Shown: positions 2,227-30,117 of the stretch, piece by piece | How positions within the stretch are numbered: position 1 is the stretch's first letter | Layout of the letters: each line of letters opens with the position of its first letter | Assembly: GCF_009707865.1 (NCBI RefSeq) | Contig: NZ_WMBA01000017.1 | Location: 1-64,000 of the forward strand | Source of the DNA: Amycolatopsis pithecellobii | GTDB taxonomy: Bacteria; Actinomycetota; Actinomycetes; Mycobacteriales; Pseudonocardiaceae | Reading direction: 5' to 3' | DNA length: 64,000 nt | Notes under the pieces: generated by a model | Database searches by the model: none | Told to the model about the DNA's origin: nothing | What the model saw: only the letters and a program-made list of their open reading frames with translations | Position numbers and translations under genes: made by a program

Positions 2227-3516
2227 GTGCGACGCCGGATCCTGCTGGCCATTCTGCTGGCCGTCGCGGTGACCGCGGCGGCGCTCGGCATCCCGCTGGG
2301 GATCACGGCCTGGAAGCTCGTGGACAGCATCACCACGGAGGACCTGGGCGCCCGCGCCTCGCAGATCGCCGCGACACTCGACACCGACCTCGCCGATGGT
2401 GCGCTGACCGGCGACGAGCTGGCCAAGGTCGCGGTCGCCATCCCGGCGGGCGGCCGGCTGACCGTGCGCTTGCCTGGCCGGCCGCCGCAGACCGAGGGGG
2501 AGGACCCGGGCAGCGACGTGGTCACCGCGCGGGTGCAGCTGGCCCGCGATGGCACTCTCGAGCTCGCGACGCCCGCCGGTCCGACCCGGTCCCGGCAGAC
2601 CACCGTCACCCTGGCCGTGCTGCTGTTGGTGGTGCTGTCGGTGAGCATCGGCACCATCGTCGCGACCGTCACCGCCCGCCGGCTGGCCCGGCCGCTGCGG
2701 CACGTCGCCGAACGCGCGGCGAAGCTCGGCGGCGGCGACTTCCGCCCAGACCCCAGCCGGTACGGGGTCGGCGAGCTCGACATGGTGGCGGAGGCGCTCG
2801 ACACGTCGGGGACCGCGCTGGCCCAGCTCGTGCAGCGGGAACGGCAGCTCGTCGGCGACGTGTCGCATCAGCTGCGCAGCAGGCTCACCGCGTTGCAACT
2901 GCGGCTCGACTCGCTCACGATCGTCGAGGACAGTGATGTCGCCGAGGACGTGCGAGCGGCGCAGGAGCAGGCCGAGCGGCTCTCCGAAGCACTGGAGGAA
3001 CTGCTCGCGGCGGCTCGTGCGGCGAGCGAGGTCGACGCGGAACCGGTCGAGCTGGGCGCCACGCTGCCGGAAGTCGCCCAGGAGTGGCGGCAGTTGCTGC
3101 GCGCCGAGGGCCGGAACCTGCGGTTGAGAATCGGCGACGGCCTGATCGCGCGGGCCACCCCGGGACGGTTGCGGGAGGTCGTCGGAGTGTTGCTGGACAA
3201 CGCGTTGCGCCACGGCGCCGGCACGGTGACCCTCGCCGCGCGGCGCGGTGACGCCGAGGGGACGGTGGTGGTCGAGGTCAGCGACAACGGCTCCGGCATT
3301 CCCGACGAGCTGGTCCCGCACGTGTTCGAGCGCGGGTTCTCCGGTGGCGGATCGACGGGCGTCGGCCTCGCGCTGGCGCGTGCGCTGGCGGAGGCGGACG
3401 GCGGGCGGCTGGAGCTGTCGAGCCGGCGGCCGGCGGTGTTCAGCCTGTTCCTGCGGGTGCCCAGCCCCGGTGACGTCCGCGAGGTGCGCTGGCCGTCGGA
3501 GCGGGTGCCGCGCTAG
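2227..3516 (+). CDS. Membrane sensor histidine kinase
   Basis: 429 residues. Order: membrane segment (about 5-28), short extracytoplasmic sensor (30-120), second membrane segment (126-148), HAMP linker (148-200), HisKA with phospho-accepting H214 in DVSHQLRSRL, and a C-terminal HATPase with N box (LLDNALRHG), DNGSGIP and a Gly-rich lid (GGGSTGVGLALA). It starts with GTG two bases after the response regulator stop and is co-transcribed with it. Nothing in the small sensor domain identifies the signal. Confidence 0.93.
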   Translation: MRRRILLAILLAVAVTAAALGIPLGITAWKLVDSITTEDLGARASQIAATLDTDLADGALTGDELAKVAVAIPAGGRLTVRLPGRPPQTEGEDPGSDVVTARVQLARDGTLELATPAGPTRSRQTTVTLAVLLLVVLSVSIGTIVATVTARRLARPLRHVAERAAKLGGGDFRPDPSRYGVGELDMVAEALDTSGTALAQLVQRERQLVGDVSHQLRSRLTALQLRLDSLTIVEDSDVAEDVRAAQEQAERLSEALEELLAAARAASEVDAEPVELGATLPEVAQEWRQLLRAEGRNLRLRIGDGLIARATPGRLREVVGVLLDNALRHGAGTVTLAARRGDAEGTVVVEVSDNGSGIPDELVPHVFERGFSGGGSTGVGLALARALAEADGGRLELSSRRPAVFSLFLRVPSPGDVREVRWPSERVPR

Positions 3517-25822: not shown

Positions 25823-26971
25823 GTGGGAAGAGGCGAACCGAGCGTCCTGATCGATGCGACCGCCGTGCCCGCGGACCGGGGTGGGGTCGGTCGCTATGTC
25901 GATTCGCTGACGCAGGCGCTGGACGCCGCGGGCGCGCCGGTCAGCGTGGTGTGTCAGCCGCGGGACAGCGAGTTGTTCGCCGAGCTCGCCCCACGGTCAC
26001 GCATCGTGCCGGCCGGGCCTGCCACCGTCACCCGGACGGCGCGGCTGGTGTGGGAGCAGACCACCCTGCCGATGCTCGCGCGGCGGCTGAACGTGCAGGT
26101 CGTGCACTCGCCGCACTACACGATGCCGCTCGCGAACTCCGCCGCCTCAGTGGTCACCTTGCACGACGCGACGTTTTTCACTGACGCGGTACTGCATTCC
26201 TCGGTGAAGGCGCGGTTTTTCCGCGGCTGGACGGCCACCGCGCTGCGGCGCGCGGCAGCATGTGTGGTGCCGAGTCACGCGACGGCCGCCGAGTTGTTGC
26301 GCGTGACGCGGGCGCGGCCGCGGCAGCTGGAGATCATCGAGCACGGTGTGGACGTGGAGCGGTTTCATCCCCCGTCGGCGGTCGAGATCAAGGCGGCCCG
26401 CGCGGCGATCGGCGTGGATACGGGACCGTACATCGCTTTTCTGGGGGCGCTGGAGCCGCGGAAAAATGTGCCGGCGTTGATCCGCGGCTTCGCGAAGGCG
26501 GTCGAACGGCGTGGTGACGCGCCGGCGCTTGTGCTTGCCGGGCAGCCGGGCTGGGACACGCAGGTGGAAAAGGCACTGGAGGCGGTGCCGTTGCGGCTGC
26601 GGGTGATCCGGGCGGGGTACCTGCCGTTCGACACGCTGGCGGGTTTCCTCGGCGGGGCGGAGCTGGTGGCGTACCCGAGCCTCGGCGAAGGTTTCGGCCT
26701 GCCGGTGCTGGAGGCCATGGCGTGCGGCGCGTGCGTCCTGACCACCCGGCGGCTGTCCTTACCGGAAGTCGGCGGCGACGCGGTCGCGTATTGCGGTGTC
26801 GGCGCGGGTGACGTGGCTGCGGCCCTGACGGAACTCCTCGACGACGGCGCCCGCCGAGCGTCCCTCGCCGAAGCCGCTTTGCTGCGCGCGAAGGAGTTCT
26901 CGTGGGCAACCAGCGCCGAACGGCACCGCGAGGTGTACGAAAAGGCCTGGCTCGCCCACCGGCGGAGGTGA
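25823..26971 (+). CDS. GT4-family glycosyltransferase
   Basis: 382 residues. SVLIDATAVPADRGGVGRYV at the N-terminus, VVTLHDATFFTDAVLH, then IAFLGALEPRKNVPALIRGF and LGEGFGLPVLEAMACGACVL, the donor-binding E-x7-E motif. It is a close paralogue of the preceding gene. The product likely uses a nucleotide sugar in the cytoplasm for wall or surface polysaccharide; substrate unknown. The gene ends one base before the -10 box of the first DUF3800-linked RNA. Confidence 0.88.
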   Translation: MGRGEPSVLIDATAVPADRGGVGRYVDSLTQALDAAGAPVSVVCQPRDSELFAELAPRSRIVPAGPATVTRTARLVWEQTTLPMLARRLNVQVVHSPHYTMPLANSAASVVTLHDATFFTDAVLHSSVKARFFRGWTATALRRAAACVVPSHATAAELLRVTRARPRQLEIIEHGVDVERFHPPSAVEIKAARAAIGVDTGPYIAFLGALEPRKNVPALIRGFAKAVERRGDAPALVLAGQPGWDTQVEKALEAVPLRLRVIRAGYLPFDTLAGFLGGAELVAYPSLGEGFGLPVLEAMACGACVLTTRRLSLPEVGGDAVAYCGVGAGDVAAALTELLDDGARRASLAEAALLRAKEFSWATSAERHREVYEKAWLAHRRR

Positions 26972-26977
26972 TAACCT
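26972..26977 (+). promoter_or_regulatory. -10 box TAACCT of RNA unit 1
   Basis: TAACCT is followed by 7 nt and then by the first base of the conserved 80-bp unit. The second unit has TAGCCT at the identical distance although the 7-nt spacers differ (CAACGCT against CGATGGT). No clear -35 is seen. Confidence 0.6.
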
Positions 26978-26984
26978 CAACGCT

Positions 26985-27064
26985 GCGAGGCCCCCGTAGG
27001 GCCGAGAAGTGAGCCCGTGGTGCGTCCGGACGGTCGTGTCGCGGGCTTTGCGCTGTCTAGACCT
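26985..27064 (+). ncRNA. Putative DUF3800-associated small RNA, unit 1
   Basis: An 80-base unit that recurs at 27740-27819 with one difference (G to T in a loop). It can form GGCCC-loop-GGGCC (26989-27003) and a larger stem AGCCCG/CGGGCT (27012-27046) enclosing CGTCCGGACG, followed by TTTGCGC as a terminator. It starts 8 bases after a TANNNT box. The last bases reach the stop codon of the convergent DUF3800 gene. RNA motifs named after DUF3800 genes have been described by comparative genomics; membership of this one is unverified. It could instead be the structured 3' end of the DUF3800 mRNA. Confidence 0.65.
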
Positions 27065-27590
27065 TTGCAACTTTGGCGACCGCGGATTCGATCCTGCGTC
27101 GCCAGTCGCCTCCCGCCCCGTAACACCACGCGACGGCGTCGGGAATCCACAGCAGCGGCGTCGACGTCGATTCGTGGTGCTCATAAACCACGCCCGTTTC
27201 CGACGGCCGACCGCCCAGTCCTTCGTAGATGGTTGCCTCGTCGTGCCGGTCCTGCTCCTGCCGGCTGTCGATCACCACCCGGCGCGCACCGATAGCGAGC
27301 AGATCACGGACCGCCTCGGCGAGGCATCGCTGGCGGTCCTGCTCCGCAGTCTTGGGAGTGCACGATGTTGCGTAGATCCACGAAGTCGTGGGGAGCGCGG
27401 CGATCCGATCGGCGAGCAAACGCCGCCGCCGCGGCTTCTCCTTTTTGAAGTGGAGCTCGCGCTGTCCTGGAAGCAGTAACGAAGACAACTGCCGCCGAGC
27501 CGGCCCGAGTTGCGCCGGATCAACGATGCTGACGCAGACGATGTAGGAACTGTCGCGTCCGGACTCGTCGACGAAGGCGTGCACTGACAT
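27057..27590 (-). CDS. DUF3800 protein, unit 1
   Basis: 177 residues from ATG 27590; longer frames pass through the second RNA unit and are not credible. The N-terminus SVHAFVDESG holds the first acidic pair of the DUF3800 domain, predicted to have an RNase H-like nuclease fold; further conserved blocks are LLPGQRELHFKKEKP, RRVVIDSRQEQDRHD and LLWIPDAVAWCYGAGGDWRR. DUF3800 genes are often found with small RNAs and in defence-related neighbourhoods, but their biochemical role is not established. About two thirds identical by eye to the next gene, which is a tandem copy. Confidence 0.85.
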   Translation of the reverse strand: MSVHAFVDESGRDSSYIVCVSIVDPAQLGPARRQLSSLLLPGQRELHFKKEKPRRRRLLADRIAALPTTSWIYATSCTPKTAEQDRQRCLAEAVRDLLAIGARRVVIDSRQEQDRHDEATIYEGLGGRPSETGVVYEHHESTSTPLLWIPDAVAWCYGAGGDWRRRIESAVAKVAKV

Positions 27591-27726
27591 CGGCCTATGG
27601 TGACCTGGGGGTACGACACTCTTGACAGGCGATAGCTGGCCACCGCGGTACTGCGCGGCCCGAGTCGCGTCGGTTGGCCTGGGAGTTTCCGGAATATGTG
27701 GCTGGTAGGTGGGCGTGCTCGGGTGG

Positions 27727-27732
27727 TAGCCT
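27727..27732 (+). promoter_or_regulatory. -10 box TAGCCT of RNA unit 2
   Basis: TAGCCT, 7-nt spacer, then the conserved 80-bp unit, the same geometry as at unit 1. Confidence 0.6.
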
Positions 27733-27739
27733 CGATGGT

Positions 27740-27819
27740 GCGAGGCCCCCTTAGGGCCGAGAAGTGAGCCCGTGGTGCGTCCGGACGGTCGTGTCGCGGG
27801 CTTTGCGCTGTCTAGACCT
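27740..27819 (+). ncRNA. Putative DUF3800-associated small RNA, unit 2
   Basis: 79 of 80 bases match unit 1; the single change lies in the loop of the first hairpin (CCGTA against CCTTA) and keeps the stem intact. It ends at the stop codon of the second DUF3800 gene exactly as unit 1 does. Identity is far higher than that of the flanking protein genes, which argues for constraint on the RNA or for recent gene conversion. Confidence 0.65.
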
Positions 27820-28339
27820 CGATCACTTTCGACACGACCGGCATGACCCGGCGGCGCCAGTCGCCACCGGCACCGTAGCACCATGCGACCGCGTCGGGAA
27901 TCCATAGCAGCGGCACGGACGCGGAGTTCAGATGTTCGTGTGCCAGCTCGGTTCCCTGCCGACCCAGCGCGCGATAGATCGTCGTCCTGTCGTGTCGGTC
28001 CTGTTCCTCCCGGCTGTCCAGCACGACACGGTGAGCGCGCCGCTCGATGAGGTCGCTCATCGCCTGCTCCAGGCACCGTTGACGAGCCTGTTCCTCCGTT
28101 TTCGGCGTGCACGCGGTTTCGTAGATGTTGGTGGCGACGGGCAGCTCGGCGATTCGGTCTGCCAGCAACCGCCGGCGTGGCGGTTTCTCGGTCTTGAAAT
28201 GCAACTCCCGCTGGCCGGGCAGGAGCAGCCCGGACAGCCGCTTGCGTGCAGGCGCCAGCTCGGCAGGCTCGACGACCGCAGCACAAATGAAATAGCGGCG
28301 GCCCCGGCCGGACTCGTCGATGAACGCGTGCACTGACAT
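27812..28339 (-). CDS. DUF3800 protein, unit 2
   Basis: 175 residues from ATG 28339 (SVHAFIDESGRGRRYF). The same blocks as unit 1: LLPGQRELHFKTEKPPRRR, HRVVLDSREEQDRHD and PLLWIPDAVAWCYGAGGD. The upstream sequences of both copies share GTCGTACCCC and GCCGATGTCAGTGCACGC, so a unit of about 755 bp (RNA plus gene plus leader) was duplicated. Divergence is concentrated in residues 12-35 and 90-140. Probable nuclease-like protein acting with, or on, its small RNA; role unproven. Confidence 0.85.
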   Translation of the reverse strand: MSVHAFIDESGRGRRYFICAAVVEPAELAPARKRLSGLLLPGQRELHFKTEKPPRRRLLADRIAELPVATNIYETACTPKTEEQARQRCLEQAMSDLIERRAHRVVLDSREEQDRHDRTTIYRALGRQGTELAHEHLNSASVPLLWIPDAVAWCYGAGGDWRRRVMPVVSKVIEV

Positions 28340-28483: not shown

Positions 28484-28592
28484 TTACTAATCCGACCAAA
28501 AGTAGGCAGACCCCAAGCAGCACGTAACCGTTGCCACGCAAGCCGGATCGCCGTGACTGTGGTCGGATTATTAACGAACGGCACAGTACGCT
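28484..28592 (+). repeat. Dispersed palindromic element, copy B, upstream of the LysE-type gene
   Basis: TTACTAATCCGACCA, then AAAGTAGGCAGACC, a middle nearly identical to copy A (CGTTGCCACGCAAGCCGGAT), GCCGTGACTG and the arm TGGTCGGATTATTAACGAAC, ending GGCACAGTACGCT. The final TACGCT (28587-28592) is followed by 7 nt and the GTG start at 28600, so this element carries the promoter of the exporter gene. Confidence 0.85.
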
Positions 28593-28599
28593 CCCCAAT

Positions 28600-29208
28600 G
28601 TGGTCAACTGGGTGGCTTTCCTTTCTACGGCGACACTCGTTTCGCTCATGCCTGGTGCGAACCAGTTGCTCGGCCTGAGCAACGCGGTCCGGTACGGGCC
28701 TGGTCCCGCGATCGCCGGCCTCGGTGGGCGGCTCGCGGCTTTGGCGGTCCTGGTTGGGCTCGTCGCGGCCGGACTGGGGGCCGTGCTCGCCGCATCGGCG
28801 GCCACCCTCACGGTCATCAAGTGGGTCGGCGTCGTCTACCTCGCGTGGATCGGGATCTCCGCGGTGCGGCAGGCGCTCCGGTCGCCGATCGCGAACGGGG
28901 TGGTGGACCCGCCGGCGGCCCGCGGGGTGTGGCCGGTGGTCACGAAGGAATTCGTGGTCGCCATCAGCAACCCGAAGGCGCTGCTGATGTTCGCCGCGTT
29001 GCTGCCCCAGTTCACCACCAGCGCCGACGGTCTCGTCCTGCTCGGTGCGGGGGCTCTCGGCATCGAGCTCGTCGTCGGGCTCGGCTACATCACGGTCGGG
29101 AGCGTCCTGGGTGCGCGCGGAATCAAGGCCCGCGCCCAGCGGCGGCTCGACGTCGCCACCGGTGTCTGCTTTCTCGGGATCGCCGGCCTCCTCGCGGCCG
29201 AGGCCTGA
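28600..29208 (+). CDS. LysE/RhtB-family amino-acid exporter
   Basis: 202 residues from GTG 28600. Six hydrophobic helices with the LysE family signs: LVSLMPGANQLLGLSNAVRY near the N-terminus, WVGVVYLAWIGISAVRQAL and KEFVVAISNPKALLMFAALL. These carriers export amino acids or related small molecules. The start is set by a TACGCT -10 box 7 nt upstream at the end of the palindromic element and no ribosome site is present, so the mRNA is probably leaderless. The gene is not part of the wall cluster by function and may have entered with the DUF3800 insertion. Confidence 0.85.
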   Translation: MVNWVAFLSTATLVSLMPGANQLLGLSNAVRYGPGPAIAGLGGRLAALAVLVGLVAAGLGAVLAASAATLTVIKWVGVVYLAWIGISAVRQALRSPIANGVVDPPAARGVWPVVTKEFVVAISNPKALLMFAALLPQFTTSADGLVLLGAGALGIELVVGLGYITVGSVLGARGIKARAQRRLDVATGVCFLGIAGLLAAEA

Positions 29209-29247: not shown

Positions 29248-30117
29248 ATGAGCCGGGTGACCGAGTCGACACGTTATGGCGACGGCGTCGCCGTGGTCGT
29301 CGTGACCTACTTCCCCGGCGACGAGCTGGACCGTTTCCTCGACAGCCTTGAGAAGGCGACCACCGGGGACGTCCGTGTGGTGCTGGCCGACAACGACTCC
29401 ACCGACGAAGCGCTCGACCGGGCCGCGCAGCGGGACTACGTTCACCTGCTGCGGATCGGCGAGAACCTCGGCTACGGCGGGGGCGCCAACCGCGGGGTCG
29501 CCGAGCTCGACCACAGCTACGGCTGGGTCGTCGTCGCGAACCCCGACCTCGAGTGGGAGCCCGGCTCGCTCGACGTCCTCCTCGACGCCGCGAAACGCTG
29601 GCCGCGCGGTGGCGCGTTCGGCCCCCTCATCCAGGATCCCGACGGGACGGTCTATCCCTCAGCGCGGTTACTGCCATCACTCGGCCGTGGGATCGGGCAC
29701 GCGCTGTTCGGGAAGGTGTGGCCGGCGAACCCGTGGACCCGCGCCTACCGCCAGGAACGCGCACCGGTGGAACGCACCTCCGGCTGGCTTTCCGGTTCCT
29801 GCCAGCTGTTCCGCCGCGAGGCCTTCGACTCCGTGGAGGGTTTCGACTCGCGCTACTTCATGTACTTCGAGGACGTCGACCTCGGCGAACGCATCGGCCG
29901 CGCCGGGTGGCAGAACGTGTACGTGCCCTCGGCCGCGGTAACGCATGTCGGTGGCACCGCGACTTCCCGGGCACCGAAGAAAATGCTGGCCGCGCACCAC
30001 GAGAGCGCGTATCGCTACCTCGCCGACCGTCACCGCGGTCCGGCGTGGAAACCGGTGCTCGCCGCGATCAAGCTCGGGCTCGCGGTGCGGCTCAAGCTCG
30101 AAACCCGCGGGCAGTAG
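29248..30117 (+). CDS. wbbL: dTDP-rhamnosyl transferase for the arabinogalactan linker
   Basis: 289 residues of GT2. It matches Mtb WbbL (Rv3265c) along its length: VVVVTYFPGDELDRFLDSLE, VVANPDLEWEPGSLDVLLDA, GPLIQDPDGTVYPSARLLPS, WLSGSCQLFRREAF and FDSRYFMYFEDVDLGERIGR. WbbL adds L-rhamnose from dTDP-rhamnose to GlcNAc-PP-polyprenol to make the link between peptidoglycan and arabinogalactan. rmlB/rmlD and the guanylyltransferase neighbours support this. ATG 29248 is annotated; GTG 29257, 7 nt after CACAAT, is an alternative leaderless start that removes three residues. Confidence 0.92.
   Translation: MSRVTESTRYGDGVAVVVVTYFPGDELDRFLDSLEKATTGDVRVVLADNDSTDEALDRAAQRDYVHLLRIGENLGYGGGANRGVAELDHSYGWVVVANPDLEWEPGSLDVLLDAAKRWPRGGAFGPLIQDPDGTVYPSARLLPSLGRGIGHALFGKVWPANPWTRAYRQERAPVERTSGWLSGSCQLFRREAFDSVEGFDSRYFMYFEDVDLGERIGRAGWQNVYVPSAAVTHVGGTATSRAPKKMLAAHHESAYRYLADRHRGPAWKPVLAAIKLGLAVRLKLETRGQ

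Follow-up and report, generated by a model that had tools for sequence, protein, structure and literature searches.

A structured small RNA convergent with DUF3800 genes in actinobacteria, plasmids and phages: a candidate RNA-controlled nuclease unit

Introduction

Two 80-bp repeats, each running tail-to-tail into one of two diverged DUF3800 genes, raise the question of what the repeat is and what it does to, or for, the protein encoded opposite it. They lie in a 64,000-nt stretch of the genome of Amycolatopsis pithecellobii (hereafter the window, meaning the whole stretch analyzed), where an earlier note had read them as copies of a selected small RNA. RNA motifs associated with DUF3800 genes were reportedly first described by comparative genomics in 2017. 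In the parts of the literature covered by our search, outside which lay subscription papers and preprints, so that published work may exist, no mechanism or function for DUF3800-linked RNAs was found, and searching with the letters of the RNA returned only human or animal papers that were unrelated as judged by title. As for the protein, two reports (PMC10910872, PMC12669027), in their accessible portions, list DUF3800 among the accessories of rare CRISPR systems and ascribe an RNase H fold to it. The central question is whether the RNA protects against the DUF3800 protein or arms it.

Results

The two units in the window

A 77-nt core pattern of the repeat occurs on the plus strand at 26985 and 27740, with no third site in the window, and was recovered in 0 of 100 shuffles. 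As the earlier note had reported, RNA copy A (26985..27064, +) and RNA copy B (27740..27819, +) agree at 79 of 80 positions, the lone difference (G in A, T in B) falling in the loop of hairpin 1, whose arms in copy A are formed by 26989-26993 and 26999-27003; the RNA is completed by a long stem-loop with the apex CCGGACG. Scored with our RNA model, copies A and B reached 97.6 and 96.9 bits, both being among the rows from which the model was built. The TANNNT box described at a constant distance before each copy was likewise found, as the -10-like sequences TAACCT (26972..26977, +) for A and TAGCCT (27727..27732, +) for B, each separated by 7 nt from base 1 of its RNA.

Convergent with each RNA is a gene on the minus strand, DUF3800-like gene A (27057..27590, 177 aa) and DUF3800 gene B (27812..28339, 175 aa), both starting with ATG and ending with TAG (CTA on the plus strand). 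Each repeat had been said to end at the stop codon of its gene; the stop codon is indeed involved, but the 80-mer actually overlaps the last 8 nt of the gene, stop codon included, so that the stop lies within the 3' end of the RNA. The two proteins share 66.1% identity, in line with the earlier estimate by eye of about two thirds, and third codon positions are 42.5% identical. The product of gene B passes the Pfam gathering cut-off for DUF3800 (PF12686) narrowly (21.2 bits against 21), whereas that of gene A, a clear paralogue of B, falls below it on its own. No further good RNA copy was detected in the same genome (next best E 0.1), gene B was its sole Pfam DUF3800 match, and PADLOC, PHROGs and NCBIfam gave no matches for proteins A and B. 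The left edge of the site is a glycosyltransferase gene (25823..26971, +; Pfam and genus comparison) and the right edge a glycosyltransferase-like gene (29248..30117, +), whose GT2 name comes from reading its sequence and not from a family search; a LysE-type gene (28531-29208; Pfam) lies between gene B and the latter.

Residues D7, E8, H46, E50, R85 and D148 are invariant in the 67 members of protein set A2, and D116, R31, R54, H135 and L144 nearly so, a pattern that fits a metal-dependent RNase H-type site in a predicted active nuclease of that fold. Matches to PF12686 at E ≤ 1 were obtained for 20 of the 67, which places this clade at the edge of the DUF3800 family, and a sequence search of the PDB found no credible relative (one chance hit, E 0.68).

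RNA structure and upstream box

Of the blastn matches, L028 and L053 were discarded as coding coincidences, and L037 has a coding look too. The first alignment (A1) was built without L041, L047, L044's partial second copy and one truncated repeat from L009. In A1 (32 RNAs), 92.1% of stem cells are paired and 43 cells are changed on both sides, compared to 11.4 in shuffled and 7 to 19 in slid controls. In A4 (111 RNAs from 100 sources, a subset of the loci), which was fitted to the RNA model and leans toward its structure, 415 cells are changed on both sides, against 151 shuffled and 46 to 129 slid. The same two stem-loops ranked highest in a structure-free covariation scan, which was run on A4 and is hence partly dependent on it. 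Compensatory changes, which the earlier note had proposed looking for, thus abound in these stems. A contact of the hairpin 1 loop (UAG) with the 3' tail (CUA), a pseudoknot suspected by eye, was absent from the best 45 column pairs of the scan, most of which belong to the two stem-loops or adjacent columns, and was set aside.

The strand was indicated by the wobble pairs: GU/UG cells far exceed CA/AC cells (271 vs 48, or 168 vs 48 without one constant UG pair), which points to an RNA made from the plus strand. Folding energy alone is unremarkable (z -1.6 and -1.8 on the plus strand, 0.3 on the minus). Of 142 RNAs, 100 have a TANNNT box at -14 to -11 relative to base 1, whereas the background rate predicts about 0.5. 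Taken with the compensatory changes and the wobble bias, this promoter-like box bears out the earlier claim of a selected, structured plus-strand RNA, and supports the unit as a separately promoted small RNA gene that is presumably expressed.

The RNA hardly varies within the genus; in other genomes variation is mainly in hairpin 1, stem bases and the 3' tail, and the loops and linkers outside the stems are also conserved. No variable guide segment, a feature of RNA-guided nucleases, appears in the alignment, which speaks against the guide role that had been among the functions first considered.

The Rfam search suggested in the earlier note led to no known family. No Rfam 15 family exceeded its gathering threshold in the window, and loose thresholds gave nothing at the RNA, either in the window or in 61 loci of relatives, where the sole match above gathering was a tRNA elsewhere in L257. 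A scan of 118 genomes from the class with the DUF3800-I and DUF3800-IX models gave no match, but neither did the controls, and this result does not speak for the absence of these families.

Conservation in the genus

Of 19 genomes from the genus, 16 have a match to the RNA and 13 to the protein, whose closest named relatives are from Amycolatopsis. Seventeen regions from 15 species were compared, with G001 and G005 contributing two regions each, the second copies being located elsewhere. The same pair of glycosyltransferase genes encloses the RNA in 14 of the 15 species, in agreement with the otherwise conserved cell-wall cluster described before, and the fifteenth species (G003) has its copy elsewhere. 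Per species, the number of RNAs at this common site ranges from one to four and that of full DUF3800 genes from zero to two. A mobile element with its own ends was considered and found to be unsupported at this fixed site. In L038 (5353-5563), two extra RNAs, 131 bases apart from start to start and with no DUF3800 between them, follow two full units.

In several species of the genus the RNA stays and the gene is broken or gone. The common-site gene of G001 is near full-length with one internal stop, and the common-site RNAs of G009 and G010, which have no full gene there, still score 94-95 bits. Three genomes have an RNA and no DUF3800 match anywhere: in G014 and G018 the RNA is at the common site and weak (62.9 and 79.5 bits, against 96-100 for common-site RNAs beside near full-length genes), and in G003 it is outside this site and scores 53.1 bits, a low value that says little because partnered RNAs off the common site (G007, G010, G012) score only 28-60 bits.

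Measured by blastn, common-site RNAs across the genus are 92-99% identical to copy A (90% for one partial copy), and those outside the site 78-87%. The loop base that differs between the two copies in the window (G in A, T in B) distinguishes them alike in three species. Among these, the A proteins share 76-84% identity with one another; the B proteins, of which one species has only a fragment, share 81% in the remaining two, and A compared with B gives 64-67%. Because both the loop base and the distinctness of the proteins are kept across these species, the duplication predates them.

Pairing of RNA and DUF3800 across actinobacteria

Among 298 genomes of the order, 61 had a match to the RNA model (R1), and in the class 38 of 246 did; these counts are lower bounds owing to fast filters, and the weakest matches may be chance. 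Among 144 mapped cellular RNAs (the window's two included, one duplicate removed from 145), a convergent DUF3800 frame is near full-length at 84, partial at 24 and missing at 36, the last class being assigned by stop-to-stop frames and including L034 and L049, where DUF3800 stretches adjoin the RNA. The stop codon of the gene falls from -11 to +24 of the 3' end of the RNA model in 78 of the 84, and at exactly -7 in 37. All recognized convergent partner genes are DUF3800.

When the order was searched from the protein side, a convergent RNA was found at 48 of 49 hits of at least 150 bits, a figure that leans upward because the profile was built from RNA-linked proteins, and at 3 of 20 hits of 90-150 bits, both counts resting on the fast-filtered RNA search; for weaker hits or fragments the figure was 8 of 20. 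A direct R1 search of the loci also reached L253 (the one miss, E 0.01) and two of the lower-scoring loci, L262 and L254, so the edge of the clade is softer than 48/49 and 3/20 suggest. Of 50 named loci picked by protein, 49 carried the RNA, the miss (L322) being an 87-residue match in a metagenome bin, and in 37 of the 44 that were measured the stop codon lay from -11 to +18 of the RNA end. The tail-to-tail arrangement noticed in the window is therefore general in this clade, and the unit is present beside nearly all of its DUF3800 genes.

RNA and protein also diverge together, with correlated distances in 72 units (A4 rows only; Mantel r 0.64, 0 of 1000 permutations), a correlation part of which shared descent alone could yield. 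RNAs with a partial gene or none are common and near full-length clade genes without RNA are rare. Gene-less RNAs show more changes in the core and more mispairs than those with a partner (p 0.045 and 0.024; A4 rows only), which argues against strong retention of a lone RNA in cells. In one genome, three equally scoring RNAs (L101, L125 and L126) are found at distances of about 1, 13 and 2 kb from contig ends and could belong to a terminal repeat.

Beyond the clade, we inspected 20 loci with a more distant DUF3800, at least two of which (L255, L262) are also within reach of R1. Most of them have an RNA at the matching 3' position that is built alike, with AGU, a long stem and a CGC or GCG tail. 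A descriptor of this layout, written after viewing those 20 flanks so that it measures and does not predict, matched 13 of the 20, against 0.25 expected from shuffles, and 1 of 42 control flanks.

Plasmids, phages and solitary RNAs

Relatives of the protein occur on 88 plasmid records. Ten loci were examined, eight selected by protein (seven plasmids and phage Gaia) and two by a DNA match spanning the RNA (L182, L183); the RNA was present in all ten and the gene in nine, the RNA of L183 being solitary within 5.4 kb. Phage Gaia carries a full unit, box included. On plasmids L178, L180, L182 and L183 the unit or RNA is near annotated recombinase, ParA, relaxase or toxin-antitoxin genes. In both phage Gaia (gp135; L174:2298-3022) and a Curtobacterium plasmid (L177:2246-3513) an upstream gene overlaps the start of DUF3800 by 4 bases, and is perhaps a third partner.

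A degenerate pattern of the RNA core was found in 14 IMG/VR records, of which only 3 have a DUF3800 anywhere in the record (profile A2). The RNA is thus solitary in 11 of 14 virus records, compared to 17 of 86 cellular RNAs fitting the same pattern with 400 nt of downstream sequence (Fisher p 3e-5), virus records often being fragments in which absence is not proof for the virus. L330 and L331 share 6.6 kb at 99.9%; with these two merged and the cut record L332 dropped, the contrast stands at 9 of 12 (p 2.5e-4). The solitary RNA of L325 precedes terminase genes and shares 6183 bp at 100% with cellular locus L052, which is the same prophage. This prophage, together with the misclassing of L034 and L049, inflates the cellular solitary figure, and these therefore work against the virus contrast.

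Phage origin is backed for L325, L330, L335, L336 and L338 by terminase, portal, head, tail, lysis, integrase or repressor families near the RNA. L337 encodes a methyltransferase, an HNH endonuclease and a phosphoesterase known from phages, and no family was found for one protein of L327. The box at -14 to -11 precedes 8 of the 14 viral RNAs and 6 of the 11 solitary ones. In L329 (300-464, -) and L336 (2538-2700, +), two DUF3800-type RNAs stand head-to-tail behind one promoter-like box with no recognized DUF3800 gene, and the second of each pair, scoring 25.5 and 33.7 bits with R1, belongs to a different class. Neighbors of 8 of the 17 solitary cellular RNAs were examined (ten proteins, nine of them by Pfam as well), and those with a family were mostly ordinary chromosomal genes, L052 aside, so not all solitary RNAs are phage tools. 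Near two solitary chromosomal RNAs from different bacterial families we observed an oxidoreductase gene with the same three Pfam domains (L051:5079-6197, L148:1259-2443).

The related phages Nebkiss (L342) and Gaia (L343), both represented by complete genomes, share, at 2958-3091 of both loci, a 134-bp block of box plus RNA with 100% identity, and the genes on either side of this block differ. A search of the whole 85,613 bp of Nebkiss found no DUF3800. The simplest reading of these two genomes is that Nebkiss kept the RNA gene and lost the nuclease gene, but a gain of the RNA alone is also possible.

IMG/VR contained no exact Amycolatopsis-type core and no AGTCGCAAGGCCAGG-type RNA, and held the second RNA class only in L336; there the A5 protein query found no match and the Gaia protein query a single record, of Gaia's length. 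Two further RNA queries of GenBank phages found nothing.

Discussion

We tentatively favor a reading, which we hold to fall somewhat short of probable, in which the RNA restrains an RNase H-fold nuclease in the manner of toxin-antitoxin or abortive-infection systems, and solitary viral RNAs are antidotes or decoys. The module would have two genes, one for a small nuclease of RNase H fold (DUF3800) and one, under its own promoter, for a structured RNA of about 75-80 nt that would bind the protein and hold it in check. If the supply of RNA failed or was disturbed by a phage, the freed nuclease would attack nucleic acid, to the detriment of cell or phage. A plasmid might benefit from carrying the unit by addiction or defense, and phages with the RNA alone may neutralize the nuclease of the host. 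We infer expression, binding, the nuclease fold, activity, toxicity, and inhibition by the RNA as opposed to activation.

We favor restraint because a covarying plus-strand RNA with its own box is paired with DUF3800 throughout the clade and diverges in step with it, because active-site-like residues are invariant and RNAs with a partial or missing gene are common while near full-length genes lacking the RNA are rare, and because of plasmid carriage, the solitary viral RNAs, the case of Nebkiss and the precedent of pseudo-ToxI, as described in the accessible part of PMC5086642. The toxin- or defense-like module proposed in the earlier note thus fits the setting, with the antidote the role we would now prefer and the guide role unsupported. 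Counting against restraint, solitary cellular RNAs are somewhat degraded and their neighbors, among the 8 of 17 examined and with the L052 prophage aside, are mostly ordinary or family-less, the two proteins match nothing in PADLOC, PHROGs or NCBIfam, the exact Amycolatopsis-type core was not found in IMG/VR, and the RNA of type III systems sits upstream in one operon whereas here it is convergent. Solitary RNAs could equally be dominant-negative cofactors or remnants.

The RNA might instead be an activating cofactor or scaffold of a DUF3800-RNA ribonucleoprotein nuclease, acting as a defense effector or in an OMEGA-like way, with viral RNAs that compete for the protein or redirect it. This second reading, which we regard as unlikely, would account for the near-obligate pairing, the co-divergence and the conserved active-site-like residues, and agrees with the place given to DUF3800, as a protein of RNase H fold, among the accessories of rare CRISPR systems in what is accessible of PMC10910872 and PMC12669027. 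It is weakened by an RNA that has no variable guide segment and is almost invariant at the genus site, and retention of the RNA after loss of the gene is less expected under it.

Less probable still is that DUF3800 is a maturase or processing nuclease whose product, a regulatory RNA able to work alone, acts on other targets. Solitary RNAs occur in cells and in virus records, as this would predict, and the RNA of L040, which has no adjacent DUF3800, keeps its stem by a two-sided change from G-C to A-U; the genome of L040 (G012) has a divergent DUF3800 elsewhere. Against such autonomy, solitary cellular RNAs have more core changes and mispairs, and RNA and protein diverge in step.

We give very little credence to an element acting as DNA, either a terminator that serves convergent genes in both directions or a folded site for recombination of the attC kind known from integrons, in spite of its position at gene 3' ends, the tandem units and the UU that follows the stem on the plus strand. 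We set it aside because of the -10-like box at a fixed distance and the excess of GU/UG over CA/AC cells; loops and linkers are moreover conserved beyond the stems, some virus copies have no DUF3800, and the attC-like pattern of different genes at the same site was not found among recognized partners. Weakest of all, recent duplication or gene conversion, an alternative that the earlier note had left standing for these tandem paralogues with RNAs identical at 79 of 80 positions, is contradicted by the loop base that divides the copies in three species, by A and B proteins that stay distinct, and by the near identity of site RNAs genus-wide compared to copies elsewhere; selection on the RNA, nearly fixed in both copies as third codon positions fell to 43% identity, appears the better explanation and conversion unlikely.

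Were the restraint reading extended beyond this clade, DUF3800 units would be widespread RNA-controlled antiviral nucleases, each clade having its own RNA on a shared layout, and the solitary copies in actinobacterial phages, sometimes of two successive classes, would be RNA antidotes to several clades together; we consider this wider proposal doubtful. If true, it would add a further class of RNA-based counter-defense beside pseudo-ToxI and Racrs, and a new toxin-antitoxin layout. Should the RNA prove protective, a class of RNA-controlled nucleases would be added to the biology of actinobacterial plasmids and phages, along with another counter-measure of viruses that is based on RNA. The choice between protecting and arming can be tested with a single covariance family (49 of 50 loci), a layout common across clades, and gene-less viral RNAs including the Gaia/Nebkiss pair.

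Comparison with known systems

The unit resembles the DUF3800 motifs of Rfam (RF02969 DUF3800-I, RF02968 DUF3800-IX and others) in being a structured RNA beside a DUF3800 gene, a genomic linkage that holds here at 48/49 and 49/50 loci, and differs from them in that its RNA matches no Rfam 15 family, loose thresholds included. With the accessories of V-A2 and VI-F CRISPR loci it shares DUF3800 and the RNase H fold attributed to them in the accessible text of PMC10910872 and PMC12669027; the proteins here, however, are of 175-177 aa with no TPR match in Pfam, and the two flanking proteins tested by Pfam are not Cas.

According to the part of PMC10651486 that is accessible, Racrs are RNA anti-CRISPRs that mimic CRISPR repeats, and they are likewise solitary RNA units in viral genomes resembling an RNA of host defense; the parent system here is instead the DUF3800 unit, whose function is putative.

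In type III toxin-antitoxin systems, as laid out in the accessible part of PMC5086642, one promoter precedes RNA repeats, a terminator and then the toxin, and phages can escape by an RNA mimic, pseudo-ToxI. If the restraint model is right, the unit would share with these systems (ToxIN, CptIN, TenpIN, AbiQ) a nuclease held by a structured RNA, and it is similarly carried on plasmids and chromosomes. The fold of ToxN differs from that of DUF3800 proteins. The unit described here is further set apart from type III by its convergent layout, by an RNA with a box of its own and no repeat array per unit, and by having a DUF3800 protein as the candidate nuclease.
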